Made by a program: the position numbers and the translations under genes. From the NCBI RefSeq assembly GCF_014596515.1, contig NZ_MSJQ01000426.1, forward strand, positions 1-64,000: DNA of 64,000 bases, written 5' to 3'. The notes beneath the pieces are model-generated. The model was given only the letters and a program-made list of their open reading frames with translations, was not told the DNA's origin and did not search any database. The number at the start of each line of letters is the position of its first letter. Position 1 is the stretch's first letter. This document shows positions 38,421 through 52,326 of this stretch, piece after piece. This DNA is from Streptomyces sp. CBMA156. Its GTDB lineage: Bacteria > Actinomycetota > Actinomycetes > Streptomycetales > Streptomycetaceae.

Positions 38421-39177
38421 ATGGGCGCACCACCGAAGATGTCCGCGCGAGCGGCCTTCGACCTGAACATGCAGGACGCCGAGATGCTGGTGGAGCTTGC
38501 CAAGCTGCTGAGTAACCAGCGGACCTACCGCATGCGGCGCGAGCTTCGAGAACGACTCGGTAGCGCGCTGTCTTTCCCCCCAGAAGCACTGGGCCGATCT
38601 GGAGTGCCTCGAAAACGACCGGGTCTTCGTCACCTTCAAGCCAGGACACGCCGAGTGGCGCGAGCGCCTTGAGGAGCCGAACCTCCGCCCGTTGCTCCGG
38701 CAGTCCCTGGTTGCCGCATGTGCGGCCATTGAGACCTTCTGTGCCGACCGCGTCATGGAGCTGTACCCGGCGGCGATAAAGCAGGACCCGCCGCCAAGCC
38801 GGCTGCTGGAGTTGTCACTCACGGTCGATGACTACCTAACGATCAAGAAGAAGTACACCAAGACCGGCTGGGGTCTTCGGCAGGTCGTCGAGCTCGAAGT
38901 GCGACAGCGGGCGAGTCCTGCGCCGGCGCAGATCGGAACGCTCTTCTCGCTCGTGGGCAAGAGCAAGCTTTTCCCCGAGATCGACAAGATCCGCAAGGTC
39001 GGGAAGGGCACCTCGACCACAGAACTGGAACGGATCGTTGAGCGACGCAACCTCATCGCACACACCGGTGATCGAAGCGGACGAGGCCGGGCTCCGATCT
39101 CCGTTGCCGAGGTCGAAGCCGACCTGGCCATCATCAAGGCGATCATCGGCGCCCTGGACCAGCTGACCACGGTCTGA
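38421..39177 (+). pseudogene. HEPN-domain protein, frameshifted in a C6 run
   Basis: The first frame starts MGAPPKMSARAAFDLNMQDA with GGAG upstream and runs to SALSFPP; at CCCCCC (38576-38581) coding shifts by +1 to QKHWADLECLENDRVFVTFK, then RQSLVAACAAIETFCADRVM and IVERRNLIAHTGDRSGRG. The RRNLIAH sequence is the R-x4-H motif of HEPN ribonuclease domains, close to the RiboL-PSP-HEPN type. A five-C run would give one protein of about 251 residues. It lies divergent from the OLD nuclease. The break may be a true mutation, slipped-strand variation or a sequencing error; without it, a toxin-like RNase in phage defence would be plausible. Confidence 0.75.
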
Positions 39178-39244
39178 GCTGAGCCGAGATTTTCAGTGCG
39201 CTCGGCAACACCAACGCTCCCAGAACCTCCAGGCCCGGACGCCG

Positions 39245-39688
39245 ATGCTCGAACAAGAAGTCACTGCCATGGCCAGTTGGTCGGGATGGGTTCCGCTGAT
39301 CGGCGCCGAGGTTCCGAGGCTGCCGGGTGTCTACTTGGTCCGGCAGGGTGAGAGCGGCCTGCTGGTGTACGCGGGCCTGGCCGGGGAGCGCCAGGGCGAG
39401 GGGCTGCGCGGTCGACTGCGGTGATACACCAGCGGCAAGGCGCTGGCCTCCGGGCTCGGCGAGGCGGTTTTCGACCGGGCACTGGCCGACGCGACCTGGC
39501 TGCGTGAGCGCCTGGAGGAGGCCGAAGATGGTCGGCCGATGCGAGCGACGGGATGAGGCAAGGCCGCCCTGGCGTGGGCTGACCTCCACGTCTGTTGGGC
39601 TGTCACCGAGAGCGGCGCGGAAGCCGAGGTCCTAGAAAGAAGAGTGCTGGCGGTGGAGGCCGTGGAGTGGTGGAATCGTGCCCGTTGA
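39245..39688 (+). pseudogene. GIY-YIG nuclease gene with two in-frame TGA codons
   Basis: The frame reads WSGWVPLIGAEVPRLPGVYL, LLVYAGLAGERQGEGLRGRL, then TGA (39422-39424), YTSGKALASGLGEAVFDRAL, a second TGA (39554-39556) and GKAALAWADLHVCWAVTESG to the final stop. GVY...VYAG is the GIY-YIG active-site core and RGRL carries the catalytic Arg. The second stop stands where the sequence suggests Trp (TGG to TGA), the first where Arg is likely (CGA to TGA). Two nonsense codons indicate decay, not recoding. Confidence 0.75.
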
Positions 39689-39696
39689 GCAAGGTC

Positions 39697-39732
39697 GAGG
39701 GCTGCCACCCGAGTGCCCGGGTGGCAGCCCTC
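39697..39732. terminator. Perfect 15-bp bidirectional hairpin
   Basis: GAGGGCTGCCACCCG and CGGGTGGCAGCCCTC around AGTGCC, between the convergent GIY-YIG remnant and the gene ending at 39806. Confidence 0.85.
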
Positions 39733-39805
39733 AACTTGTCGGCTGTCAGCCAGCAGCGGTTCCATCGGTTGCTTCGCTTTCCGGCGGAGCGGCGGAGCGT
39801 CCGGC

Positions 39806-40570
39806 CTACCCGAGCGGGGTGTTGGCGCCAGTGAGGTCTTCGATCACGCCGGGGTCGAGCTCTGCGGCACGATGCAGCAGGCGCATCCGCTGCACGGGGG
39901 TCAGGCCCAGTGCGTCGTCGAAGGCGAGGCGTTCGAGTGCGGCGGCGACGTAGCCGGGCGCGGCTGCGGCCAAGGCCTGGCGCATGGCCTCGTCGGAGAC
40001 GTCTGCCGCAGGCATGTCGGCGACGTAGTGCCCGGCGAGGCAGTACGTCTCAACCGCCCGCGTATTGATCCGCTCCAGAGCGGCCTTCGCGTTGGCGTCA
40101 CCCTTGTCGGCGCGCAGGACGAGGTCCACCTGGTCGCGGCGGTCGGCGGCCGCAGCCACCGGTCGGAGATCAGATGCAGTGGGCCACTCAGGGGTGGCCT
40201 CCTGCACCACCTCGGCGGCCGGGGTGTCCTTGGGCGTGCGGCGCAGCTTCTCCTTGAACCGGCGCGCCCCGTCCTTGACGTACGGAGTGGCAACCTCCAG
40301 GGCGGCGGCCGTCACGGCGCGCGCGACGTCCACCGCGATGCTGGCGGCGCAGTTGACGAGGAGGTTCCTTAGGCCGTCCCTGTAGCCGTCGTCGTACCGG
40401 TCGTCGGCATCGAAGAGTTCGGCCTGGGTGACGAGCGAGTTGTCCCGGTCATTGCGGGCGGTAGCACGCATCCCGCCGGAGGAGGCGCGGGAACGGTCGA
40501 GGTGGGTGCCGACGGGGTACACGGCCCACACCAGCTTGCGATTCGGCTGCGGCCGTTGGTAGTTCGACAT
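39806..40570 (-). CDS. Hypothetical protein of the element
   Basis: A 254-residue protein, start MSNYQRPQPNRKLVWAVYPV; no good ribosome site is seen. A basic N-terminal region is followed by YDDGYRDGLRNLLVNCAASI and an Ala-rich helix, then a charged segment (RRFKEKLRRTPKD), and a helical C-terminal half (LRADKGDANAKAALERIN, MRQALAAAAPGYVAAALERL, RMRLLHRAAELDPGVIEDL). There is no catalytic motif or signal peptide that I recognise. It stands alone, with a strong hairpin after it. Confidence 0.65.
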   Translation of the reverse strand: MSNYQRPQPNRKLVWAVYPVGTHLDRSRASSGGMRATARNDRDNSLVTQAELFDADDRYDDGYRDGLRNLLVNCAASIAVDVARAVTAAALEVATPYVKDGARRFKEKLRRTPKDTPAAEVVQEATPEWPTASDLRPVAAAADRRDQVDLVLRADKGDANAKAALERINTRAVETYCLAGHYVADMPAADVSDEAMRQALAAAAPGYVAAALERLAFDDALGLTPVQRMRLLHRAAELDPGVIEDLTGANTPLG

Positions 40571-40813
40571 GACGGAACTGTAGGGGGCCGCACAGACAGC
40601 GCGGCGGTAAAGGCAGCTGCACGAGATCAGCGGCGGTGGCGCCGGGGCCGATGAGGTGTCGGCCAGGCTCGGGCTTGGTGATCGCTGGCAGGCGCGGCGG
40701 GTAGGAGAACAGCCCGCATCGGCACTCAGGCAGACGGTCTCAGGGTCAGATCGGCTGCAGAGAGCTATCTCGTCACCAGGGCACGCCGACTCGTCGAACC
40801 GCTGCAAGATGCC

Positions 40814-41194
40814 TTGGAAGGCATCCCACAAGACATGGGGCAGAGTGTGCTTTTAGCCGGCTGCGACCAAGCTGTCCGTGTCGTCATCAACACCGCCGAT
40901 CAGTTCAGCAGCGAGCCCCGCCCGTCCGACCCCGCACAGGCCGAGCACCTGTGGGCCGCCGCGTGGCTCAACCTGAACCGTGTACCCCTGCGCGCACTTG
41001 GCATGTGGCTCGGCCATTCTCGACACGCCCCCACCGACTCCGGGACCACGCGGTTCGCACGGCGGGCAATCGCAACAGCAACCCGCGAATTCCAGGCTTC
41101 CGGACAAGTTCGTGCCCTACCCGTGGCGGTGCCTGTGCGCGCACAACTGGCCGCAGTCCTGGCCACCGCGCACTACGCACACCAGCGATCGTGA
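40814..41194 (+). CDS. Possible coding remnant, start unclear
   Basis: An open frame runs from a stop at 40679 to 41194. Its codons look coding (SAAESYLVTRARRLVEPLQD, AEHLWAAAWLNLNRVPLRAL, FARRAIATATREFQASGQVR), but the first usable start is the TTG at 40814 and no ribosome site precedes it; only a CTG lies earlier. It may be the 3' part of a truncated gene. No family is recognised. The bases 40571-40680 before it hold nothing I can name. Confidence 0.35.
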   Translation: MEGIPQDMGQSVLLAGCDQAVRVVINTADQFSSEPRPSDPAQAEHLWAAAWLNLNRVPLRALGMWLGHSRHAPTDSGTTRFARRAIATATREFQASGQVRALPVAVPVRAQLAAVLATAHYAHQRS

Positions 41195-41224
41195 CCGCCT
41201 CGGAATGAACGCCTATGCCGCAGG

Positions 41225-42187
41225 CTAGCCAGCGGTGGCCAGGCCACCCAGGTGCAGGCCGACGGTCCTCCCGGCGTGCAGGGCCGCTCTGGCTCGGGCC
41301 GCTCCGCTGCGGGTGGCCGCCTCGCCTCCGCCGACGGAGACTGTTCGCGTGCCGAGGCCCGCGCACTCCCGGCAAATGCCCGCGTGGGGCACCGGGTCGT
41401 GGCACTTGGTGCACTCGGCGTACCGCGCTGCTGCGAGCCTCGCAGCAGGCCGGAGGGGTGGCATCTTGCGTTCCAGGCGGTAGCGGAGCACCGCGACCGC
41501 CGAGTGCACAGGGGTGGGCAGGCCCGGAAGCAGGGCCTGAGCGAGGTCGGCAGGGGTCGCGCCACGTTCCAGCCACCGCGCTACGAGGGGTGCTAGTTCC
41601 TCGGCTTCGGTCTGGCCTAGCCGCAGGCGCGGTTCGGGGCGGATCACCCGGAACAGGGTGGTCAGTGCCTGGCGGACCTGCTCGTCCGGTGCCGCCACGG
41701 GCTGCTCGGCGGTCTCCTCTTCGGAGCTTTCCGCCCGCCCTCCGGTCCTCGCCTGAGGCTCGTCGGCGAGGGCCGGCTCGTCGGCCTGCTCGGCGGGGAG
41801 GGAGGGTTCTTTCACCAGGTCCTTTACAAGGGTGTCAGCACCGCCGGTGGTCGCTTCGCCGGAGACCGGACGGGTGGCACCCGGCAGCACCGTGAGCTGC
41901 GGGGTGTCGTGGACGTGGGTCTCGGTGCGGATGGTGCCGTCGGGCATGCGGATCTTCTCGACCCGGTAGAAGCCGGCCTCGGTCAGCTCCTTCAGGGCCT
42001 TGCGGATCGCGCCGCGTCCCTGGGTGCTGGTGTCGGCCATGTGCCGGCCGTCCTCGCGCCAGCCGTCGGGGCGGGAGAGGAGATCGGCGAGCAGGCCGCG
42101 GGCGGTGTAGGAAAGCCGTCGGTACTGCAGGACGGCGTTGGGCAGCACAGTGAAGTTGCGCGCGTGGGCGCTACGATGGACACGCAT
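41225..42187 (-). CDS. Helix-turn-helix protein with C-terminal zinc ribbon
   Basis: A 320-residue protein of a type common on streptomycete plasmids and integrative elements. The winged-helix N-terminus reads NFTVLPNAVLQYRRLSYTAR and GAIRKALKELTEAGFYRVEK, similar to plasmid replication/regulatory HTH proteins. A long Glu/Ala-rich linker follows, then HSAVAVLRYRLERKMP and a zinc-ribbon-like ECTKCHDPVPHAGICRECAG. The ATG has AGGAG 13 bases upstream. A role in replication or control of the element is likely but not shown. The remnant at 35281-35560 derives from a relative of this gene. Confidence 0.8.
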   Translation of the reverse strand: MRVHRSAHARNFTVLPNAVLQYRRLSYTARGLLADLLSRPDGWREDGRHMADTSTQGRGAIRKALKELTEAGFYRVEKIRMPDGTIRTETHVHDTPQLTVLPGATRPVSGEATTGGADTLVKDLVKEPSLPAEQADEPALADEPQARTGGRAESSEEETAEQPVAAPDEQVRQALTTLFRVIRPEPRLRLGQTEAEELAPLVARWLERGATPADLAQALLPGLPTPVHSAVAVLRYRLERKMPPLRPAARLAAARYAECTKCHDPVPHAGICRECAGLGTRTVSVGGGEAATRSGAARARAALHAGRTVGLHLGGLATAG

Positions 42188-42414
42188 CGGGAGTGATAGC
42201 TCCTGTTGCCGGACCCCGGGGTGTTACCAGCACCGCCGGGGTCGCCTATTTTCGGTTGGACCACGGAACGTAGCACACGTACGGCCGGAAGATCCAAGTC
42301 TCGCGAGCGATCACGATCACACTCTGCGGCCAGTGACGGCAGGTGAGTTGGTCCGTTGAGCCGGCCTGGCTTCCGCAGGAGGCCGCCACCGGTTGGTGGC
42401 GGCCTCGGCGCCGG

Positions 42415-42747
42415 TCATTCCAGGTTCCACACCGTTCCCGCGAGCAGCCCGTCGAAGCCGAGTCCGCGGTACATCTGCTCGAACGACTCCCACTCCTGGT
42501 GGTCCCCGATGTCGTCTCGGGCTGTGGTGACGTCGGCGGTCTCCAGGTCGTGCTCGCGCCACTCGTGGGCGCATCGGCAGCGCACGAAGACCAGGTCGGG
42601 TTGGACGTGGATAAGGAGCCAGTCGCGGGTGGCGTTGCACATGGCGCAGGTGATGGTGATGCCGCAGGGGTTGAGGGGTGCGGGGTGGGGGACGGCGAGG
42701 ACGACGTTGCGGTGGGGGTTGCGGTCGGCGTCGGCGGGGTTGGTCAA
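42415..42747 (-). CDS. Small Cys-rich protein of the element
   Basis: A 110-residue protein. I chose the TTG at 42747 (LTNPADADRNPHRN) because GGAAGGGC precedes it; a frame extending further upstream lacks such a site. The Cys pattern NPCGITITCAMCNATRDW and FVRCRCAHEWREHDL suggests a metal-binding fold. The acidic C-terminus reads DIGDHQEWESFEQMYRGLG. Function is unknown. It lies among the element's replication/mobilization genes on the same strand. Confidence 0.6.
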   Translation of the reverse strand: MTNPADADRNPHRNVVLAVPHPAPLNPCGITITCAMCNATRDWLLIHVQPDLVFVRCRCAHEWREHDLETADVTTARDDIGDHQEWESFEQMYRGLGFDGLLAGTVWNLE

Positions 42748-42884
42748 GCGCGGTGCCCTTCCGTGGTGTGACGGGTTCAAGCACCACACGACGACGGAGG
42801 GGCTGAGATGCTTCCCGATCGCGCAGGAAGACATCAAATCGACGCCCTGGCCGGGCAGGTACCCGGCCAGGGCGGGGTGGAGGG

Positions 42885-43268
42885 TCAGCTCTTGATGAAG
42901 GCGATGCGCTGGGCGGGGGTGAGGGCGTCGGAGAGGCGCGCGAACTCGGCGCGGTCCTGGTCGGTCATGGCGGCGAGGAGGTCAGTGCTGTCGGCGTCGT
43001 AGTCGGGGATCGTGATCCAGTACCGGTAGGTGAGGACGCGGAGGGCGTCCATCGGGTCGACGAGGTCGCGCTTGAGCAGGAGCTTGTACACGTCGAAGAG
43101 GGCTTCGAGCTCTTCCTCCCCGGCGGCTTCGGCCATGGCCTGCTCGGGCTCGCTGAACGGTCGGCCGTCCTGGTGGGACCAGGTGTCGGTGTCGTCGCGG
43201 TACGCGAAGTCCGCGTCGAACAGCAGCTTCATGATGTTCCGGCTGGCGAAGGTGGTGGTGTTGGTCAC
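42885..43268 (-). CDS. Small acidic protein of the element
   Basis: A 127-residue protein from a GTG with AAGGA upstream. It is acidic and helical: FDADFAYRDDTDTWSHQDGR, EQAMAEAAGEEELEALFDVY, ALRVLTYRYWITIPDYDADS, DRAEFARLSDALTPAQRIAF. No catalytic motif is seen. It follows the relaxase on the same strand and may belong to its transcript. Function is unknown. Confidence 0.65.
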   Translation of the reverse strand: MTNTTTFASRNIMKLLFDADFAYRDDTDTWSHQDGRPFSEPEQAMAEAAGEEELEALFDVYKLLLKRDLVDPMDALRVLTYRYWITIPDYDADSTDLLAAMTDQDRAEFARLSDALTPAQRIAFIKS

Positions 43269-43470
43269 GGGTGTCCTTTGCGGTGGGGGATGGGGCTGGG
43301 TGTGGTCCTGCTGGCGGCGGTGCTCGATGTCCGGTGGCGGCCGGGCGACCGCGGGCGTGGCCTGCAGGCATGGGCTGCATGGGTCGCTCCGCGGGGGCCT
43401 GGGCCGGCCCCGGGAAGGCGTGGCGCCAGGGGATGAGGAGCCTCCTCCTGCGCGGAGACAGGCTGGAGCT

Positions 43471-45189
43471 TCAGCGCCTGCGGTGCTGCTGGCGGGTGCC
43501 GGGCTGCAGCGAAGGCGTGGGCTGTACCGTGTCGCGGCCGGTCGTGGTGGGCCTGGTGGTGCGCAGGCGGGCGGCGTCGGCGGCGCGGTTGGGTTTGGGG
43601 TTGCGGCTGGTGTGCTGGATGCGGCCGAGGAGGACCTTGGCGGGTTGGCGGGCTGTGCCGAGTTCGCGGCGGGCGGTTGCCTCGGTGAGGAGTTGGCGGG
43701 GGTGGTGGCCGGCGGCTTCGGCGTCGGAGAGGACGGTGGCGAGGGCGGGCCAGGTGGGGTCGGCGAGGACGCGTGCGGCGTGGTCGGGGACGGCGGCGCG
43801 CAGGTCGTGGGCGAGGTCGTTGATCGTCTCCTGGGCGGGCTGGCGGTGGGTGAGGGCGGCGAGGTGTTCGGCGGCGGCCTGGTCGTAGGCGGCCTGGAGG
43901 TGTTGGACGGCGAGGTGGGCGGCGTGGGCCTGCTGGTGGTGTCCGCGGGCGTGGTGCCAGCGGCTGGCGAGGACTGCCGCCCAGACGAGGGCGGCGATCA
44001 GGACGGTGAGGGCGCTGCCGCCGGGTCCGTCGTCGGCGTGGAGGATGTCGCGGGCGGCTCGGCGTAGGGCGGCGGCGGCCTGGTGGTCGGCGCGCACCTG
44101 GGAGCGTTGGGCGCGGGCGTACACGCGGGTGGCGGCTCGTAGTTCGGCGCGCAGCTCGTGGGGTGCGGCCTGGGTGGTGGCGTTGATGATGTCGCCGAGG
44201 GCGGTGATCTGGGCCTGCGCGTGGGCGCCGGCCCCGGTGTTGCCGTCGGTTTCGGCGAGGTGGAGGGTGTCGAGGGCGTCGGTGGCGCGCTGCCAGCTGG
44301 TGCTGTGCCGGTGGCGGCGGGCGGTGGGGTGTTCCTCCGGGGTGCTGGCCGTGAGGAGTGCTTGGAGCCTGGGCAGGGAGAGGTCGGGGGCGATCTTGCT
44401 GCCGGAGAGGTAGTTGAGAGTCCCGTCGGCCTTGAGGTCGCCGGGCCGGGCGACGGAGTAGCCCTTCAGGTCTCCGGAAGGCAGTCGGCGGATGTTGACC
44501 TCGACGCCGCCGGCTTGGAGGTAGGCGAGGAACTCCTCGATGTTGGCGGCGTGCGGGATGGCGTCGCGGATGCGGTCTTCGAGCCAGGCGCGGCTGGTCT
44601 GCTTCCAGCCCAGACGTTTGGCCTTGTGCATCTCGGTCTGGGTGGGGCGTTTGGCGGCGGTGCCGTCGCCGGGCTTGAGCCGGCGAAGGCCGTAGTCCTT
44701 CTCGATCTGGCGGCAGGCGTCGGCGGCGCGTCGCCCGCTGCCGTGGAGCTTGGGGCGGCGGCCGTCCTCGCGGACGGTGGTCGCGAGGATGTGGATGTGG
44801 TTGTCGGCGTGGCGCATGGCGATCCAGCGGCAGGCGAGGTCGTCGCCGTCGGGGGCGATGCCGGCGGCCTGCACGATGCGGTGGGCGATGTCGGCCCACT
44901 CGGTGTCGGAGAGGAAGCGGTCCTCGGGGGCGGCGCGGACGGGGCAGTGCCACACGTGGCCGGTGAGCTTGAGGCCGACTTCGCTGTTGCGCAGGTGGAC
45001 GGGCTCGTCGAGGTAGTGGGCGAGCTGGGTGAGGGTCGCCTGCTCGTCGCGGCCGGGGTCGGGCATGGCGAGCATCGCGAAGCCGGCGACGATGTGCGGG
45101 TCGTGGTGCTCGTCGTGGCGGCCAGGGCCGTAGAGGTAGGCGAGCAGGCCGCGGGTGTTGGAGCCGGGGTCCTTGATGGCGGCGATCAC
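43471..45189 (-). CDS. Relaxase / mobilization nuclease
   Basis: A 572-residue relaxase that would nick the element's origin of transfer and lead the single strand into the recipient. The N-terminal third carries the MobA/VirD2-like core: GLLAYLYGPGRHDEH, HVWHCPVRAAPEDRFLSDTE, WADIAHRIVQAAGIA and the metal-binding HUH-type ADNHIHILATTVREDG. The remainder is a long helical Ala/Arg-rich region with one hydrophobic stretch (LTVLIAALVWAAVLA). The GTG start overlaps the MobC-like stop (GTGA), so the two are coupled, as in mobilizable elements. Confidence 0.88.
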   Translation of the reverse strand: MIAAIKDPGSNTRGLLAYLYGPGRHDEHHDPHIVAGFAMLAMPDPGRDEQATLTQLAHYLDEPVHLRNSEVGLKLTGHVWHCPVRAAPEDRFLSDTEWADIAHRIVQAAGIAPDGDDLACRWIAMRHADNHIHILATTVREDGRRPKLHGSGRRAADACRQIEKDYGLRRLKPGDGTAAKRPTQTEMHKAKRLGWKQTSRAWLEDRIRDAIPHAANIEEFLAYLQAGGVEVNIRRLPSGDLKGYSVARPGDLKADGTLNYLSGSKIAPDLSLPRLQALLTASTPEEHPTARRHRHSTSWQRATDALDTLHLAETDGNTGAGAHAQAQITALGDIINATTQAAPHELRAELRAATRVYARAQRSQVRADHQAAAALRRAARDILHADDGPGGSALTVLIAALVWAAVLASRWHHARGHHQQAHAAHLAVQHLQAAYDQAAAEHLAALTHRQPAQETINDLAHDLRAAVPDHAARVLADPTWPALATVLSDAEAAGHHPRQLLTEATARRELGTARQPAKVLLGRIQHTSRNPKPNRAADAARLRTTRPTTTGRDTVQPTPSLQPGTRQQHRRR

Positions 45190-45923
45190 GGGTGGGGCGG
45201 GGTCTCCTGGTTGGCGGACGGACGGAAGGCGTGGGCGATCTCGGTCTGGAGGCGGAGCAGTTGGTCGATGGTCCGGGGGCTGTGGGCCGGCCGGTCGTAG
45301 CCGCCGTTGTCGGCGCGGGCGATCTGGTTGAGGTTGTGGGCCAGGCGGTCGTGCTTGCGCAGGAAGACCGAGCGGAAGTGGTGGGTGGCCCGCCGCTCCT
45401 CGGCGAGGGGCAGGTCGATGAAGAACCGGCCGTCGATGAACGCCATGACGACGTCGGCGGCGAAACCGGACATGCCGTTGTAGCCGTGGGCGAGCGCAGC
45501 CGTCTGCAGCCTGGCGTGCTCGTCGGGCTTGAACCGCAGTGGGCCGACGCGGTCCTCGCGCTTGACGCCCTCGAAGCGGCGGTTGCGCGGCTCGGCGATG
45601 CCGGCCTCGGTGGGGCTGTCGTGCCGGCGGCGGTCGGTGAGGATTGCCGTCTGGACGGCGATGAGTTCGTCCGGTTCGGGGCCGCCCTCGGCCTCGAACT
45701 CCTGCCCCGGCGCGCCCTCGCGCCGGGCCCGCTCCGCCACCCCTGGGGCGGAGCCTCCCCGTGTCCGGCCGCGAGTCGGACTCGGGGTACTACTGGCTCC
45801 GCCAGGGCCGCCCGGGCCGAACGCCCGCCGCAGGTCACGGGCGAACGTAGGCGAGTCCAGAAGCGCTTCCAGGCCGGCATCGGGGCTGTCGGCGCGCTCG
45901 GGGCCGTGCTGGTGATCGGTCAG
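45186..45923 (-). CDS. MobC-like relaxosome protein, probable CTG start
   Basis: The conserved part (PLRFKPDEHARLQTAALAHG, GFAADVVMAFIDGRFFIDLP, RKHDRLAHNLNQIARADNGG) is that of MobC-type accessory proteins, which bind the transfer origin and help the relaxase. A GTG at 45740 would give 184 residues, but the same frame continues upstream as LTDHQHGPERADSPDAGLEA and LLDSPTFARDLRRAF to a CTG at 45923 with AGGAGAG seven bases before it, giving 245 residues. That CTG overlaps an upstream TGA (CTGA) of a short leader-like frame. The longer form is favoured; the start stays tentative. Confidence 0.75.
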   Translation of the reverse strand: MTDHQHGPERADSPDAGLEALLDSPTFARDLRRAFGPGGPGGASSTPSPTRGRTRGGSAPGVAERARREGAPGQEFEAEGGPEPDELIAVQTAILTDRRRHDSPTEAGIAEPRNRRFEGVKREDRVGPLRFKPDEHARLQTAALAHGYNGMSGFAADVVMAFIDGRFFIDLPLAEERRATHHFRSVFLRKHDRLAHNLNQIARADNGGYDRPAHSPRTIDQLLRLQTEIAHAFRPSANQETPPHP

Positions 45924-45969
45924 GGAGTCTCTCCTGGGTCTTCGGGTGGATCGGTCATGCGGGCGAGGT

Positions 45970-46460
45970 GCGGACGGACCGCGAGGCGGACGGTCCGGTT
46001 CCGTGAACGGACCGTTGGACTGAGCGGGTCCGGTCCACCGGTCCGGTCCGCTTGGTCGGTGAGCGGATTTCGGTCCGCCGGTCCGCCGGTTCGGCGGACC
46101 ACGGTCCGGACCGTCCGGAACGTGAACGGACCGGCGTGCCGGTCCGCGCAGGGCGGTGGGATGGTCCGGACGGTCCGATGGCCTGGTCTGCGCGGGAGAC
46201 GGTCCGGCAGCTTCCGGACCGTGCGTTCAGACAGGCCGCCGGACACCGGACCGGTCCAAGTCCGCAAGCCTCGGACACCGGTCCGGTCCGGGCGGTCCGC
46301 AAGCCTGCGGGTGGCGGACCGTCCGGTCCGTTTGGGTTGAGTGCCGCGGTCCGTTTCATCCGTCTCGTGTGCTGAAGTCCGTTGCCACGACTGGCCGGTG
46401 CGGATGGTCGCTCCGTCCCGCTACCGTCTTGGTCCGGTACAGCCGGATCGGTCCGGCCGG
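45970..46460. repeat. Dense array of GGTCC/GGACC words
   Basis: I count about 27 copies of GGTCC or GGACC in roughly 490 bases, most extended to CGGTCCG or CGGACCG and present in both orientations, often back to back (CGGTCCGGACCG near 46101). No convincing gene covers it; frames through it encode Arg/Thr/Pro/Gly-rich low complexity. It lies between mobC and the replication ATPase, where an origin of transfer, replication origin or other protein-binding locus would be expected. The rest of the gap (45924-45969 and 46461-46580) has no feature I can name. Confidence 0.8.
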
Positions 46461-46580
46461 CCGCCTTGTGGTCGGGCAGGCCCTGCGGACGGCTCTCGGA
46501 AGGCTGCCGTCCCGGTGGCGGGCGTGCGGGAGAGCGGATGCGACGTCGGTGACGGCATATACCGCACCCGGGGGTCGGGG

Positions 46581-47756
46581 TCAGCCGGCCAGGGCGCGCT
46601 GGGGGAGCGGGTGGACCTTGGGGCAGTAGCGGCGCCAGGAGTCGGCGAACTTGTTAAAGGTGTAGCCCTTGCGCTGGGTGCCGTCGGGCAGGCGGATGTT
46701 GGCCGAAGAGATGCAGTAGTCCTTGAGCAGCCCGGCCAGCGCGCGGGCTGTGAGGCCGCCGCGTCCGTGCTCGGCCCACGGCGCCTCGGGGTCGTCGTTG
46801 AGTGTCGCGAGGATCGCCGTGGTGGGCAGGGTGTCCGTGTCGCCGTGGGTGAAGAAGATCCGGCGGATGTCGGCGAGGATTCGCGCGCCGCCGCAGCTGT
46901 CCTCCTCGATCTCCTCCTCGGCCGCGACCATGTGGACGCACGCCAGGCGGGCGCGGTCCGGCCATGAGCCGCCGGCGAGGTCGGCGACGGCCACCAGGGG
47001 TTCCCAGGTGTCGGCGGCGCGGTCCTCGACTGGCATGTCCGGGTGCAGGGCTTCGGCCTTCTCCCGCACGAGGGAAGCCCAGAGGGCGAGTTTGGCGCGG
47101 GTTTCCCGGAGCAGGACGCCGTCGCGGCGGTCCCGCAGCGGGGCGACGACCTCGCCGTCGGCACGGCGGCGCATGCGGATCACGACCGATCGGTCCATGA
47201 TCGTGTCGGGCAGGTCGCCGATCCCGGCGAGGGCGGCCATAGCGAAGGTGTCGAACTCGCGGGCCTGGTGGTCGTTGCCGACCGACCGGGTGACGGGCCG
47301 GTTGCGCTGGTGGCCGGCGTTCAGCAGGCCGCGCAGGCCCTCGTTCATCTCGGCCGTGCGGGGGTTGCCGAAGATGGTGTCGACCTCGTCGACCAGCAGG
47401 GTCCTGGGCCGGTCGCTGATCGAGCGGTAGATCGCCGCCGCGCTGGTGTTGACCGTGATCAGCGGGTCGTGGACGGTCTCGACCAGGATGTCGAGCAGGC
47501 GGGACTTTCCGCACCGGCGGGCCGGAGCCACGATCGCCAGACGCGGCGCGTGGTGCCACACCGCCTGCAGGTGCGTCGCGGCGACCCACAGCGTGACTGC
47601 GTCCAGCGCCTCCGGGGACGGCAGGACCGCGTACCGGCGGATGTGATCACGCAGCTCGGCCAGCAGAGCGGCGCCCGGCGAATCGGACGTGTCCGGGGGC
47701 GCGTCGATGGTCCGAAGGGGGTCGGTCGGGGAGCCGTCTGCGGTCAGCGTCTCCAT
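46581..47756 (-). CDS. DUF3631-domain replication ATPase
   Basis: A 391-residue AAA-like ATPase typical of actinobacterial integrative elements and phages. LAIVAPARRCGKSRLLDILVE holds the Walker A (GKS) and RPRTLLVDEVDTIFGN the Walker B; NEGLRGLLNAGHQRNRPVTR and DRSVVIRMRRRADGEVV follow, and the DUF3631-like C-terminus has LKDYCISSANIRLPDGTQRK and GYTFNKFADSWRRY. It probably unwinds or loads at the origin of the excised element. The ATG lacks a strong ribosome site. A primase partner was not found nearby. Confidence 0.85.
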   Translation of the reverse strand: METLTADGSPTDPLRTIDAPPDTSDSPGAALLAELRDHIRRYAVLPSPEALDAVTLWVAATHLQAVWHHAPRLAIVAPARRCGKSRLLDILVETVHDPLITVNTSAAAIYRSISDRPRTLLVDEVDTIFGNPRTAEMNEGLRGLLNAGHQRNRPVTRSVGNDHQAREFDTFAMAALAGIGDLPDTIMDRSVVIRMRRRADGEVVAPLRDRRDGVLLRETRAKLALWASLVREKAEALHPDMPVEDRAADTWEPLVAVADLAGGSWPDRARLACVHMVAAEEEIEEDSCGGARILADIRRIFFTHGDTDTLPTTAILATLNDDPEAPWAEHGRGGLTARALAGLLKDYCISSANIRLPDGTQRKGYTFNKFADSWRRYCPKVHPLPQRALAG

Positions 47757-47882
47757 AGCGGCGTCGGCGTCGAGAGGGTGGGACAGAGAGGTGATGGTGG
47801 GACTCCAGATCGCGGCACGCGGAGGGGGCGCCGGGCGCCGGCGGTAGAGGGCGGAAACGGGAAGGGGGTGAGGGGCGGCTGG

Positions 47883-48098
47883 TCAGGCGGTCTGGTCGGC
47901 GCTCTGGCCGTCCAGCCAGGCTTCCACCTCCGCCCAGCGGTAGCGCAGGTGCCGGCCGACCTTGATCGCCACGGGGCCCTGGCCGCGGTGTCGCCACGCG
48001 TACACGGTCCCGAGCGGGACGCCGAGGTACGCGGCGAGCTCCTCCGCGGTGGCCAGTGGGCGGCGATCGGGGGTGGTGGCACGGAAGGTCGTGGGCAA
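47883..48098 (-). CDS. xis: Excisionase-like HTH protein
   Basis: A 71-residue MerR/excisionase-type winged helix: LATAEELAAYLGVPLGTVYA, WRHRGQGPVAIKVGRHLRYR, WAEVEAWLDGQ. I chose the TTG at 48098 because GGAGACC lies five bases upstream and it gives the usual Xis length; an ATG at 48191 would add 31 poorly conserved residues. In element excision, Xis bends DNA at the attachment sites and works with the integrase. It is divergent from int, as in related elements. The 126-base gap to the replication gene shows nothing notable. Confidence 0.82.
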   Translation of the reverse strand: MPTTFRATTPDRRPLATAEELAAYLGVPLGTVYAWRHRGQGPVAIKVGRHLRYRWAEVEAWLDGQSADQTA

Positions 48099-48694
48099 GA
48101 GGTCTCCAGTGGGCAGGGGGCAAGGGAGTGCGGGCGCGCCGAAGGGCCCTTGGAAAAGGGGTCGTTCTGCGCTGGGGAGAGAAGTCTCCACACAACCCGG
48201 CTCGGAACCTAAAACGGCTCAGGGTCGGTCGGCGGGCCCGCCCGGAGCGAGGTGAAGCGTCGCGACCTCGCCGGGCGTCGATAACGAACGTAGGGCCCGC
48301 AATATCTCGCGTGCAAGGAGTTCGGGAAAATCCACCAAAAGATCTTGATCGCCCTGTCGGGGTGGCCATGCTCAGGCAACTAGCCAGGTCAGGATGCATC
48401 GCGTCCGCGATTGGACGTTGTGATCGCCCTTGAGCGGCGGTGAGCGCGCATGGGCGCCAGTGGGCTCGGGACTATCCGGCGCTATCGAGCACGAATTGGC
48501 ACTGAAGTGCCTCTTTGGGAATCTCTCATTTGACAAACCGGTCGCGGTCGATAAACATCCAACACCCGCCCCGAGGGGCGCTTCCGCGAGCGTTCCGCAT
48601 TCGCGGTTCACCGGCGCCGCCGTCCGCGCCACCACTTCCACCTCACCGCCGGCCACAGGCCGTGCCCCCTCATGCCCCAGCGCGAAGGAGCCGA
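48099..48694. other. Divergent xis-int control region
   Basis: About 600 bases, less GC-rich than the flanks, with no supported gene. It separates divergent xis and int, and is the obvious place for regulation of excision. An int promoter candidate is listed separately. Confidence 0.5.
48530..48557 (+). promoter_or_regulatory. Candidate sigma-70-type promoter of int
   Basis: TTGACA (48530-48535), 16 bases, TAAACA (48552-48557). The -35 is a perfect match to the housekeeping consensus. It lies about 140 bases before the int start. Confidence 0.5.
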
Positions 48695-49996
48695 ATGGCG
48701 ACCGTCTACGACACCTGGCACAAGACCTATCCCCGCCCGACCGACAAGCCCTGCCGCGAGCACAAGGGCAAGTACCCCACCGCCGAGCACGGCAAGGGCA
48801 AGCGCTGGCAGGTCCGCTACCGCGACCCCCAGGGGAATCAGAAGAAGGAGGACTTCGAGCTCAAGACCAAGGCCGACAGCCGCGTCGCCGAGCTCAAGGC
48901 AGCCTTGGACGACGGCACGTACATCGACCCTGCGGCGACCAGGATCACCCTCGGCGCGTACGCCACGAAGTGGTTCAAGAACAACACTGCGGGCCCGACG
49001 ACGGAGGTCCGCTACGAGTGCGTGGTGCGGAACCACATCGTCGGGCGCCTCGGCCACCGTGAGATGCGGGTGTTCAACGATCCCGAGCCGGTTCGTGCAT
49101 GGATCAAGGAGCTGCTGGAGGTCCCGCTGGCGGCTTCCACGATCGGTGGCATCGGCGACGTGCTCAGCAGCATCTTCGATGCCGCCGTCGACTCCGGCAT
49201 CCTGAGGCGCAACCCGTGCAAGGCGTCCTCCGTGTCGTGGCCAAAGGTCCCGCCGAAGCCCGTCGTGCCGTGGACCCGTGAGCGGGTGCTGGCGGTCCTG
49301 GAGGGACTCCCCGAGAGCTTCCGCGCCGGCGGCGCGGTGGGTGTCGGCTGCGGCCTCCGTCAGGGCGAGATCTTCGCGCTGACGGAGGATGACATCGACT
49401 TCGAGGGAGGCTGGTTGCACGTGAACCAGCAGATCCGCTTCGTCGGCTCGAAGATGGTGTTCGCGCTGCCGAAGGGTGACAAGATCCGCTCCGTGCCGCT
49501 GTCGCCGGCCACGGCCAAGGCTCTTCGGGCCCACTTCGCGGTGTTCAAGCCGACGCCCGCGACGCTGCCGTGGCACAAGCCCGACGGCAAGCCGAAGACC
49601 CTCAAGCTCCTCTTTGTGGACGCCAAGGGGAAGCCGTACAACCGGAGCGTCTTCAACCAGGGCCTCTGGAAGCGCGCCCTGGTGCACGCCGGTGTCATCC
49701 CGCCCCGCACGAGCGGCTCGCAGTACTTCGAGGCGGCGCCCGACGACGGCATGCACGCTCTCCGCCACACGTACGCCTCGGCCCAGCTCGAAGGCGGTAC
49801 CAGCATCAAGGCCCTTGCGGTCTACCTCGGCCACTCGGATCCCGGCTTCACGCTCCGGACCTACACTCACCTCATGCCGAGCAGCGAGGGTCGTGCCCGC
49901 TCGGCCACCGACGACTTCCTCCTCGGCGTGGCCGGGCAGGAGCGCGGCCAGGGCACTTCCGGGCCCGTGTGCCCTGGATGTGCCTTGGCCGCCTGA
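48695..49996 (+). CDS. int: Tyrosine integrase
   Basis: A 433-residue site-specific recombinase that would integrate and excise the element at the 72-bp repeats. An N-terminal arm-binding/SAM-like domain (KRWQVRYRDPQGNQKKEDFE, then TLGAYATKWFKNNTAG) is followed by the catalytic domain with Arg222 in GVGCGLRQGEIFALT, His354 and Arg357 in HALRHTYAS, His380 in LGHSDPGFTL and the nucleophile Tyr390 in RTYTHL. The start has GAAGGAG upstream; longer frames read into low-complexity sequence. It ends 70 bases before attR. Its last codons (VCPGCA) overlap a 17-bp repeat also found beside attL. Confidence 0.95.
   Translation: MATVYDTWHKTYPRPTDKPCREHKGKYPTAEHGKGKRWQVRYRDPQGNQKKEDFELKTKADSRVAELKAALDDGTYIDPAATRITLGAYATKWFKNNTAGPTTEVRYECVVRNHIVGRLGHREMRVFNDPEPVRAWIKELLEVPLAASTIGGIGDVLSSIFDAAVDSGILRRNPCKASSVSWPKVPPKPVVPWTRERVLAVLEGLPESFRAGGAVGVGCGLRQGEIFALTEDDIDFEGGWLHVNQQIRFVGSKMVFALPKGDKIRSVPLSPATAKALRAHFAVFKPTPATLPWHKPDGKPKTLKLLFVDAKGKPYNRSVFNQGLWKRALVHAGVIPPRTSGSQYFEAAPDDGMHALRHTYASAQLEGGTSIKALAVYLGHSDPGFTLRTYTHLMPSSEGRARSATDDFLLGVAGQERGQGTSGPVCPGCALAA
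49968..49984 (+). repeat. 17-bp terminal repeat, right copy
   Basis: TGTGCCCTGGATGTGCC, identical to 21177-21193 and in the same orientation, lying in the last codons of int and 82 bases before attR. Confidence 0.6.
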
Positions 49997-50062
49997 CGGC
50001 ACCTTTCGGGTGCCCGCCCCGGATCCTGTTGACGAGTGATCAGAAGTGGGCGAACCCGCAGG

Positions 50063-50695
50063 TCACGGCCAGACCAGGCAGTACAGCTGGTGCCCGGCCT
50101 CGTGCAGCCGGTTGGCGAAGTCCTGCCACTCGTGCAGCATGCTGTAGATCACGAACGCGTCCCGCGGTCCGCGCCGGTCCGGCACGGTGGACCAGATGAA
50201 GGCGGCGGCGCCGAGTTCGGTCTCGTCGGCCTTGCGCAGCGGTTCGACGACGTTGTGGGGGAGCTGGACGACGGCGTAGTCGGGGTGCAGCACGACCAGC
50301 TCCAGCGGCGGCACCTGGTGCAGCGGGACCCCCTGGATGCCGGTGAGCACCATGGCGCTCATGGTCTCCGGTTTGATCTTGGTGGAGAGGTGGCCGGTGG
50401 GGGAGCCGCTGGTCTCCATCAGGTCGCCGAGCCGCCCCAGCGAGCCCAGCTCGCCGGCGTCCAGGCCGAGTCCGCCGGGCCCCAGGGCGGTGGGGACTCT
50501 GGCGGCGGTCGCGCGGTCAGGGGCGCCGAAGTACTTGTACGTCACCCCCACGCGTCCCTCACCCCGCCTCTCACCGCCGCGACGACCTCGACCCGTACCC
50601 GCTCCCGCACCCGCTCCCGTACCCCCGCGTGCGGCCTCGGTGGGCCGGCGGGAGCCCCCCGCGGCCTCGTCGTAGCCGTCCTGCGCCTCGGACAC
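50063..50695 (-). CDS. Conserved hypothetical protein whose 3' end is the integration site
   Basis: About 210 residues. The conserved part starts VTYKYFGAPDRATAARVPTA and includes LGSLGRLGDLMETSGSPTGH, IKPETMSAMVLTGIQGVPLH, LVVLHPDYAVVQLPHNVVEP and ends MLHEWQDFANRLHEAGHQLY-CLVWP. Those last 25 residues or so are encoded by the 72-bp repeat, so integration rebuilt the gene's end. I prefer the GTG at 50695 (VSEAQDGYDEAA, GAGG upstream); GTG codons at 50551 or 50545 would skip a Gly/Arg-rich lead and are possible. Function is unknown. It is divergent from hemL. Confidence 0.75.
   Translation of the reverse strand: MSEAQDGYDEAAGGSRRPTEAARGGTGAGAGAGTGRGRRGGERRGEGRVGVTYKYFGAPDRATAARVPTALGPGGLGLDAGELGSLGRLGDLMETSGSPTGHLSTKIKPETMSAMVLTGIQGVPLHQVPPLELVVLHPDYAVVQLPHNVVEPLRKADETELGAAAFIWSTVPDRRGPRDAFVIYSMLHEWQDFANRLHEAGHQLYCLVWP
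50067..50138. repeat. attR: right 72-bp direct repeat
   Basis: Identical to 20997-21068. It lies inside the 3' end of the target gene, of which it encodes the last codons up to the stop. Confidence 0.93.
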
Positions 50696-50997
50696 TCGGA
50701 CCATCCTCACCGGAATTCGCCGGAATCGACAGACCCCCGCACGTCCGGCGTCCCACCGGTCGTGCTCCTTACCCGTCATGCGCCGCCGTACCCACTCGCG
50801 GTACGCGGCAGTCCTCTTCACACCCCTGCACACAGACCGGAGCGCCTGCGCACTCTGTGTACACAGTCTGACTGGTCCCCGGTCCGGTGCAGTCAGCGGC
50901 CCCTGCTGTACGGACAACCGTACAGACAACGGTGCCCGGATCATCGTTCCAGATGATCGGGTCGGACATGCAGAGCGCAAGGACACGATTTGAGACC
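50696..50997. promoter_or_regulatory. hemL promoter region with two palindromes
   Basis: About 300 bases between the divergent target gene and hemL. It contains a perfect 12-bp palindrome CTGTGTACACAG (50855-50866) and an 8-bp inverted repeat CTGTACGG-acaa-CCGTACAG (50906-50925), about 70 bases before the hemL ATG. Both look like operator sites for dimeric regulators. Neither matches the Rex operator. Confidence 0.6.
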
Positions 50998-52326
50998 ATG
51001 TCTTTTGTGAGCTATCCCTACGAAGCCCCCCAGTCCCAGTCGCTGTTCGACCGCGCCTCCGTGGTGACCCCCGGCGGCGTCAACTCCCCGGTGCGCGCCT
51101 TCCGCGCGGTCGGCGGCACGCCGCGCTTCATGGTGTCCGGCACCGGCCCCTACCTCACCGACGCCGACGGCCGCGAGTACGTCGACCTGGTGTGCTCGTG
51201 GGGTCCGATGATCCTCGGCCACGCGCACCCCGAGGTGATCGACGCCGTCCGGCGGGCCGTCTCCCACGGCACCTCCTTCGGCACTCCCGGCCAAGGCGAG
51301 GTCGAGCTGGCCGAGGAGATCGTCGCCCGGGTCGCCCCGGTCGAGCAGGTCCGCCTGGTCTCCTCGGGCACCGAGGCCACGATGTCCGCGATCCGGCTGG
51401 CCCGCGGCTTCACCGGCCGCGCGAAGGTGGTCAAGTTCGCCGGCTGCTACCACGGTCACGTGGACGCGCTGCTGGCCGCCGCCGGTTCCGGCGTGGCCAC
51501 CTTCGGCCTGCCGGACACCCCGGGCGTCACCGGCGCCCAGGCCGGCGACACCATCGTGCTGCCGTACAACGACCTGGCCGCCGTCGAGCGGGCGTTCGCC
51601 GCCCACCCGGGCGAGATCGCCTGTGTGATCACCGAGGCCTCGCCCGGCAACATGGGCGTCGTCCCGCCGCTGCCCGGCTTCAACGGCGGCCTGGCCCGGC
51701 TCTGCCGGGAGAACGGCGCGCTGTTCATCTCCGACGAGGTGATGACCGGCTTCCGCGTCTCCAAGGCCGGCTGGTACGGCCTGGAGGCCGCGAACGAGGG
51801 CTGGGCGCCGGACCTGCTGACCTTCGGCAAGGTCATGGGCGGCGGCTTCCCGGCCGCGGCCTTCGGCGGCCGCGCCGACGTGATGGCGCACCTGGCCCCG
51901 GCCGGCCCGGTCTACCAGGCGGGCACCCTGTCCGGGAACCCGATCGCCACCGCGGCCGGCCTGGCCCAGCTGCGCGGCTGCACCGACGAGGTGTACGCGA
52001 CGGTGGACCGGGTCGCCGCCGAGATCTCCGGCCTGGTCACCGAGGCGCTCGCCAAGGAGGGCGTGGCGCACCGTCTCCAGACCGCGGGGAACATGTTCTC
52101 GGTGTTCTTCACCGAGGCCGCCGTCACCGACTACGACGAGGCGAAGACCCAGGAGGCGTACCGTTTCACCGCCTTCTTCCACGCGATGCTGGCCGAGGGC
52201 GTCTACCTGCCGCCATCCGCCTTCGAGTCCTGGTTCGTCTCGGCGGCCCACGACGAGCGGGCGATCGAGCGGATCGCCGCCGCGCTGCCGGCCGCCGCGC
52301 GCGCCGCTGCCGCCGCCACGGCCTGA
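50998..52326 (+). CDS. hemL: Glutamate-1-semialdehyde 2,1-aminomutase
   Basis: A PLP enzyme that turns glutamate-1-semialdehyde into 5-aminolevulinate, the step between HemA and HemB. Seen: [38 protein letters not shown], the phosphate-binding [44 protein letters not shown] and the Schiff-base Lys in [13 protein letters not shown]. Its 442 residues are normal. The ATG was chosen at [14 protein letters not shown]; a slightly earlier in-frame start is possible. It starts an apparent run with the histidine phosphatase (29-base gap). Confidence 0.95.

Follow-up and report, generated by a model that had tools for sequence, protein, structure and literature searches.

The DUF3631 protein family corresponds to RepAM, which the available text of Ghinet et al. 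2011 (PMC3218068) makes responsible for the autonomous replication of pMEA300, predicting a rolling-circle mode without sequence similarity to known initiators. The Streptomyces plasmid pWTY27 carries a repAB-iteron locus that is bound by RepA, as related in the accessible portion of its report (PMC3583192). In the accessible portions of the literature on DUF3631/RepAM, pMEA300 and AICE iterons, we found no repeat arrays of RepAM in print. Here we analyze a dense array of short words beside a DUF3631 gene in a 64,000-nucleotide stretch of Streptomyces sp. CBMA156 (contig NZ_MSJQ01000426.1, positions 1 to 64,000; hereafter the window). This array, termed array-2 below, is most likely part of a switch that starts or controls the copying of the element in which it resides, and sequence comparison reveals arrays of this kind, written in slightly different words, in related elements.

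Judged by its gene content, the host of the array is an integrative element, which is probably mobilizable, and the array lies between its MobC/relaxase genes and its DUF3631 (RepAM) gene. Read from right to left, the gene order is tyrosine integrase, HTH_17/excisionase-like, DUF3631, array, MobC-like and MobA/VirD2-type relaxase, and the following features were delineated:

48515 to 49996, plus strand: tyrosine integrase (PF00589).
47883 to 48191, minus strand: HTH_17/excisionase-like protein (PF12728, TIGR01764).
46581 to 47756, minus strand: DUF3631 protein, RepAM-type replication initiator (PF12307, E 3.9e-71; AAA+ core and C-terminal winged helix in the model; fold search).
46360 to 46555, minus strand: probable remnant of array-1, six GACGG just 3′ of DUF3631, weak in the window alone and clear in relatives.
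45975 to 46455, no strand assigned: array-2, 22 CGGWCCG among 28 GGWCC, non-coding here.
45186 to 45740, minus strand: MobC-like protein, so labelled because it adjoins the relaxase and has a short, weak NikA/MobC-like similarity.
43471 to 45189, minus strand: MobA/VirD2-type relaxase (PF03432, E 1.3e-7).
41225 to 42187, minus strand: protein with an N-terminal domain like phage HTH/replication-initiation proteins (PHROG matches, best 3e-15), also present in the related loci L072 and L073.

The MobC-like protein has no Pfam or NCBIfam match, and it resembles the NikA/MobC-like protein of L072/L073 over 38 residues only. The protein at 41225-42187, which matches its L072/L073 counterparts at 73-74%, may serve the element as a second replication protein. 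A search of 28500-51000 for direct repeats of at least 20 nt marking the element ends found none.

Between 45970 and 46460 (491 bp) the window contains 28 GGWCC words, 20 GGTCC and 8 GGACC, and 22 of the 28 are CGGWCCG. The preliminary description gave a count of about 27, and the density that it reported is real: dinucleotide shuffles of the same stretch (n=2000), a comparison it had proposed, contained on average 5.0 GGWCC (maximum 11) and 1.0 CGGWCCG (maximum 5), and no other 490-bp stretch of the window (starts outside 45400-46500) holds more than 7 GGWCC. The occurrence of the words in both orientations, also listed there as a feature, is uninformative, since CGGWCCG, but for its middle W, reads identically on both strands. 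CGGWCCG and GGWCC are the RsrII and AvaII sites, respectively.

It had also been asked whether the genome reaches a similar density elsewhere. In the window's own genome (9.17 Mb on 458 contigs, in an assembly that is 6.4% contaminated) it does not: of the 43 CGGWCCG triples whose gaps do not exceed 30, 19 fall inside the array, with at most two overlapping triples at any other place. When gaps are limited to 14, just 2 of the 19 triples in the genome fall in the array, and at least one such tight triple is present in 69 of 70 genomes of the genus, so that clusters of three or four words must be regarded as ordinary in the genus. Twenty-two irregularly spaced CGGWCCG are not ordinary for it, and the array is the densest CGGWCCG place of its own genome. 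Short, regular CGGWCCG minisatellites with a period of 9, 12 or 15 (e.g. G003:C97:205554-205614) were observed in most genomes of the genus, far above a reversed-pattern control.

The nearest relative of the window, L071, can be aligned with it over 860 bp 3′ of DUF3631, with internal gaps of 2, 3, 2, 6, 20, 7, 1, 1 and 27; most of these are not multiples of three, which makes a conserved reading frame through the array unlikely. Identity in the array zone is 76%, 14 of the 22 window words occupy the same aligned column in L071, and blocks of words have been both gained and lost between the two. One 60-bp step reaches an AT content of 40% in the window and 28% at the same place in L071; the two differ here, and an AT-rich stretch common to both, as of an unwinding site, is not apparent. 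Rfam, promoter and terminator scans found nothing, and the plasmid collection returned no DNA relatives of the array.

DUF3631 matches were obtained in 41 of the 70 genomes of the genus and, at E values up to 1e-30, in 215 of the 394 genomes sampled from the family, which indicates that RepAM replicons are widespread in the family. A further 23 named loci gave matches, and the plasmid collection contributed three DUF3631 records, including two circular Streptomyces plasmids, of 14.3 and 13.5 kb. Stretches from relatives were fetched in two sets of 79, and 184 loci were oriented. Five were dropped (L021, kept as L258; L031/L032, kept as L071/L072; and the partial L048/L049), leaving 179 rows that represent 176 different proteins, a few rows being one locus from two collections. 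In a first pass over 100 loci, the best clustered 7-mer of 65 loci reached an S of 20, the maximum from one shuffle per locus being 15.3; 60 of these 65 clustered 7-mers lay within 700 bp of the DUF3631 gene.

Two kinds of array emerge from these loci. The zone of array-1 is the first 480 bp 3′ of DUF3631, and its words include GACGGCA/AAGACGG, ACGAGT, ACCCGT, GACGGA and CCGCTAC, among others. Four or more copies of one such word occur at 157 of the 179 DUF3631 loci versus 8 of 1566 control zones, and array-2, defined by a GGWCC/GGTC core, occurs at 49 of the 179 versus 0 of 866 control zones, the words having been chosen and counted on one and the same set of loci, with other zones of those loci serving as controls. 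Four strong examples of array-1 have 14-18 GACGG words each; in the window, GACGG occurs six times in 46340-46580 (241 bp), against about 1.5 predicted from the window background. By locus, the array-2 words are GGGACCG (21), CCGGTCA (15), CGGWCCG (7) and CGGACCA (6), and the CGGWCCG array of the window is an array-2. Related elements, whose inspection had been proposed, include carriers in at least four genus codes of the family. Since 130 of the 179 loci lack array-2, it is not needed by every RepAM.

The location of array-2 varies among carriers. Forty-four of the 49 have it in the 5′ part of the DUF3631 gene, where 460 of 474 words fall within the open frame, distributed over the three frames as 144/176/140, with all three frames used at 39 of the 44 loci. 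The window and L071 have it 3′ of DUF3631 and directly 5′ of the MobC/relaxase genes, and L224 also has it 3′ of DUF3631. At L072/L073 it occupies the second half of a DUF2637 ORF, 0.8 kb from DUF3631, and has a NikA/MobC-like gene just behind it; in L032, identical as a locus to L072, that ORF holds 13 array-2 words in mixed frames. A translation conserved across homologues, named earlier as a sign that the stretch is coding, is not what the relatives present: their arrays do lie in coding DNA but take up all three frames, and it is therefore the DNA, not the protein, that is constrained. Comparison of the loci indicates that the DNA word is what is kept and that array-2 has moved while staying near DUF3631.

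Several observations concern other places or other loci. The circular plasmids L149 (NZ_CP108973.1) and L150 (NZ_CP108827.1), perhaps excised elements, encode integrase, HTH, DUF3631, prim-pol and TraB/FtsK proteins and have a CCGCTAC array-1 at the 3′ end of DUF3631. Word clusters away from DUF3631 were seen at L037 (ACCAGCA x8, about 1470-1510 bp 3′ of the gene) and at L131 (AGCCGGA x15, about 4.6-4.7 kb upstream of its DUF3631 end), and L089 and L090 have four copies of GGGGTAA/CTTACCC within about 60 bp 3′ of DUF3631.

Mapped onto FastTree trees, some long branches of which were flagged, the state of array-2 requires fewest changes on DUF3631: 10 versus 20 on the relaxase tree (130 rows), 12 versus 23 on integrase (170 rows) and 11 versus 14 on HTH (89 rows). 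An earlier relaxase comparison, with 64 rows and noisy class labels, had given only 12 versus 10 changes. When the word is considered among carriers only, DUF3631 is better by 5 to 6 changes than relaxase, by 6 to 12 than integrase and by 6 to 7 than HTH, the margins over relaxase and HTH being little. On these trees, array-2 tracks DUF3631 better than it tracks relaxase, integrase or HTH. The search for a co-occurring neighbour gene revealed none that goes closely with array-2, the best cluster being found with 12 of the 49 carriers and 0 of the 130 other loci. This cluster is an open frame of about 69 aa on the minus strand, about 1750 bp upstream of the DUF3631 end; it is perhaps either a small gene or antisense to the array.

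An AlphaFold2 model of the DUF3631 protein based on 17 sequences (mean pLDDT 72.6, pTM 0.66) displays an AAA+ core spanning about 25-285 and, at 309-377, a winged-helix pattern. Its best Foldseek matches in the PDB were Drosophila ORC (4.8e-6), PriRep1 (1.8e-4), NrS-1, MCM and monkeypox E5 (D5/E5), with low TM-scores of about 0.2-0.4, and a VIA fold search with the model matched MCM proteins across about 25-288, with Z values as high as 14.7. Sequence matching to solved structures returned nothing beyond two hits at chance level. All 179 DUF3631 proteins contain Walker A and B patterns and 13 of the 179 an H-x-H pattern, so the HUH motif is not conserved. In the model, RepAM is an AAA+ ATPase whose C-terminal part is a winged helix, as in SaPI Rep-like initiator helicases, and this predicted architecture, combined with a non-conserved HUH motif, does not fit the published rolling-circle prediction.

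Pairs of loci with the same array-1 word have a winged-helix identity above that predicted from the core (residual difference 0.045, 0/500 permutations), and to a lesser degree the same holds for the helical part (0.025, 0/500 permutations); the label permutations (n=500) ignore the tree. A natural word switch is provided by L101 (G049), where the array-1 word 3′ of DUF3631 is CCGTAAC and not CCGCTAC. Of the winged-helix columns invariant in 11 relatives, 6 of 29 are changed in L101, versus 3 of 221 elsewhere (Fisher 1e-4, for a segment chosen once the L101 differences had been seen), and the 11 relatives have 0-3 changes in 29-32 such columns. The winged helix is thereby a good candidate for the reader of array-1. 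No such link was detected between array-2 words and winged-helix identity (residual 0.002, 165/500 permutations), and the helical part was weakly positive (0.011, 12/500 permutations). Because array-2 failed the winged-helix comparison, we regard it as iteron-like, short of a proven set of iterons. Its reader may be another face of RepAM or a host protein.

Other assignments of the reader were considered and rejected. CGGWCCG as the word of the DUF3631 winged helix conflicts with the array-1-like words beside DUF3631 in the window and L072, as well as with the negative residual result. GGGACCG arrays accompany two unlike HTHs, and 15 of the 49 carriers have no detected HTH of the HTH_17 family, which discards that protein. 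DUF2637 is not matched in the window at E 1e-3. Among 102 loci, the HTH protein at 41225-42187 was found only in L070, L072/L032 (one locus twice) and L073, a count that is weak because many other stretches end before its place. The co-occurring neighbour gene, limited to 12 carriers and on the opposite strand, was set aside as a partner.

We put forward, at a probability of about 0.5, that the RepAM (DUF3631) replication module of an integrative element, probably mobilizable, has in array-2 a set of iteron-like binding sites for a protein; RepAM would open array-1, and array-2 would be a loading aid or a copy control. The excised element would be copied from an origin beside the RepAM gene; RepAM would bind GACGG-type words just 3′ of its own gene and open the DNA there; and array-2, the second word array of the module, would help to load RepAM or restrain initiation. 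As in iteron origins, several short repeats adjoin the initiator gene beyond chance, and the repeat word follows the DNA-binding domain of the initiator for array-1 (0.045), but not for array-2 (0.002). Two small circular Streptomyces plasmids with DUF3631 and a 3′ CCGCTAC array-1 favour an iteron-type reading, as do the word density, the contrast with the control zones, the tree comparisons and the 14 words held in place. The absence of array-2 from 130 of the 179 loci, the missing link of its word to winged-helix identity, the small carriers-only margins, the difference in AT content between the window and L071, and the array-2 of L072/L073, which is in a DUF2637 gene beside a NikA/MobC-like gene and not in DUF3631, count against it. 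Of the three roles suggested in the preliminary description, iteron-like replication fits best, in the altered form of a second array: the array class follows DUF3631 on trees, and DUF3631 is the published RepAM initiator in the available text of PMC3218068. The origin of transfer and the TraB-type site are disfavoured. More tentatively, the control region of RepAM may be written in two independent word codes, with array-1 read by, and changing with, the winged helix and the GGWCC-core array-2 read by something else; array-2 could then be written across initiator coding sequence in all three frames and, never more than about 1.3 kb from the gene, have changed place among its 5′ end, its 3′ side and an adjacent gene.

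Array-2 could instead be a site for a conserved host protein (a factor of the nucleoid, of segregation or of replication) or a decoy at which the translocase of another element would act in transfer; its need to be present on the excised circle would then keep it close to RepAM. The persistence of the GGWCC/GGTC core while RepAM and its winged helix diverge, the lack of a closely tied neighbour gene and the presence of unlike HTH proteins with one word are all in line with such a site, but the better fit of array-2 to DUF3631 than to three other element genes and its usual position inside the DUF3631 gene render it rather unlikely. We know of no host protein that reads a GGWCC array. Distinctly less credible is an origin of transfer or relaxosome array bound by the MobC-like protein or the relaxase, even though the window and L071 have the array immediately 5′ of their MobC/relaxase genes and a NikA/MobC-like gene follows it in L072/L073. 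Outside the clade of the window, the relaxases and MobC-like proteins nearest to its own, those of L075, L085, L086 and L119 (69-72% and 58-62% identical to the window's, respectively), belong to loci without array-2; no relaxase was found within 8 kb at L072/L073, which carry the array; 44 of the 49 carriers have the array across DUF3631 from the usual place of the mob genes; and the relaxase tree needs twice as many changes.

A functionless low-complexity repeat spread by slippage would account for the blocks gained and lost between the window and L071 and for the tight CGGWCCG triples of the genus, many of which are regular tandem repeats. It accounts poorly for irregular spacing, for 22 words where the rest of the genome offers at most two overlapping triples, for the 14 words held in place, for the empty control zones and for carriers in several genus codes, and we consider it improbable, slightly more so than an origin of transfer. 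A set of recognition repeats read by the element's own TraB/FtsK-type translocase has a precedent in the 8-bp word arrays bound by TraB in Streptomyces plasmids (available text of PMC3583192); yet two queries found no TraB/FtsK homologue in 38584-52256, a range taken with the element ends undefined, and such homologues were found just in array-1-only loci of the CCGCTAC/CCGTAAC class, so that this role is very improbable.

Under the preferred reading, a second array of the RepAM replication module, the arrays, the AAA+/winged-helix model and the free plasmids of the same layout point to an iteron-type helicase origin instead of the published rolling circle. Array words would then predict incompatibility groups, and the modules would offer small replicons for work in actinomycetes.

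Compared with the RepAM elements of the pMEA300 AICE type, as depicted in the available text of PMC3218068, the present element shares the DUF3631 replication protein, the integrase and the HTH gene, but has a relaxase in the place of TraB and arrays flanking the DUF3631 gene. The clt/TraB recognition repeats are likewise many short repeated words on a Streptomyces-type mobile element, whereas the array studied here is beside a replication gene, is tied to DUF3631, has a near-palindromic word and comes with no traB found (accessible portion of PMC3583192). The theta plasmids pWTY27, pFP1, pFP11 and SCP2, in the same portion of that report, also combine rep gene(s) with an adjacent repeat region, which is bound by Rep there; relative to pWTY27, the words and the repeat layout differ.

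In lambda-type origins, iterons are located inside the initiator gene, as is array-2 in the initiator coding sequence of 44 of 49 carriers, although the window array is outside the gene and the protein family is a different one.

The initiator helicases SaPI Rep and SCCmec Cch2, with their iteron origins, also belong to integrated elements, and their layout, insofar as the available text of PMC7581432 presents it, is matched by array-1 and the RepAM model, PriRep1 being among the fold matches. Relative to them, the present locus adds a second array, with other words and mostly in the 5′ part of the initiator gene, whose word does not follow the winged helix, in a host of high G+C content.
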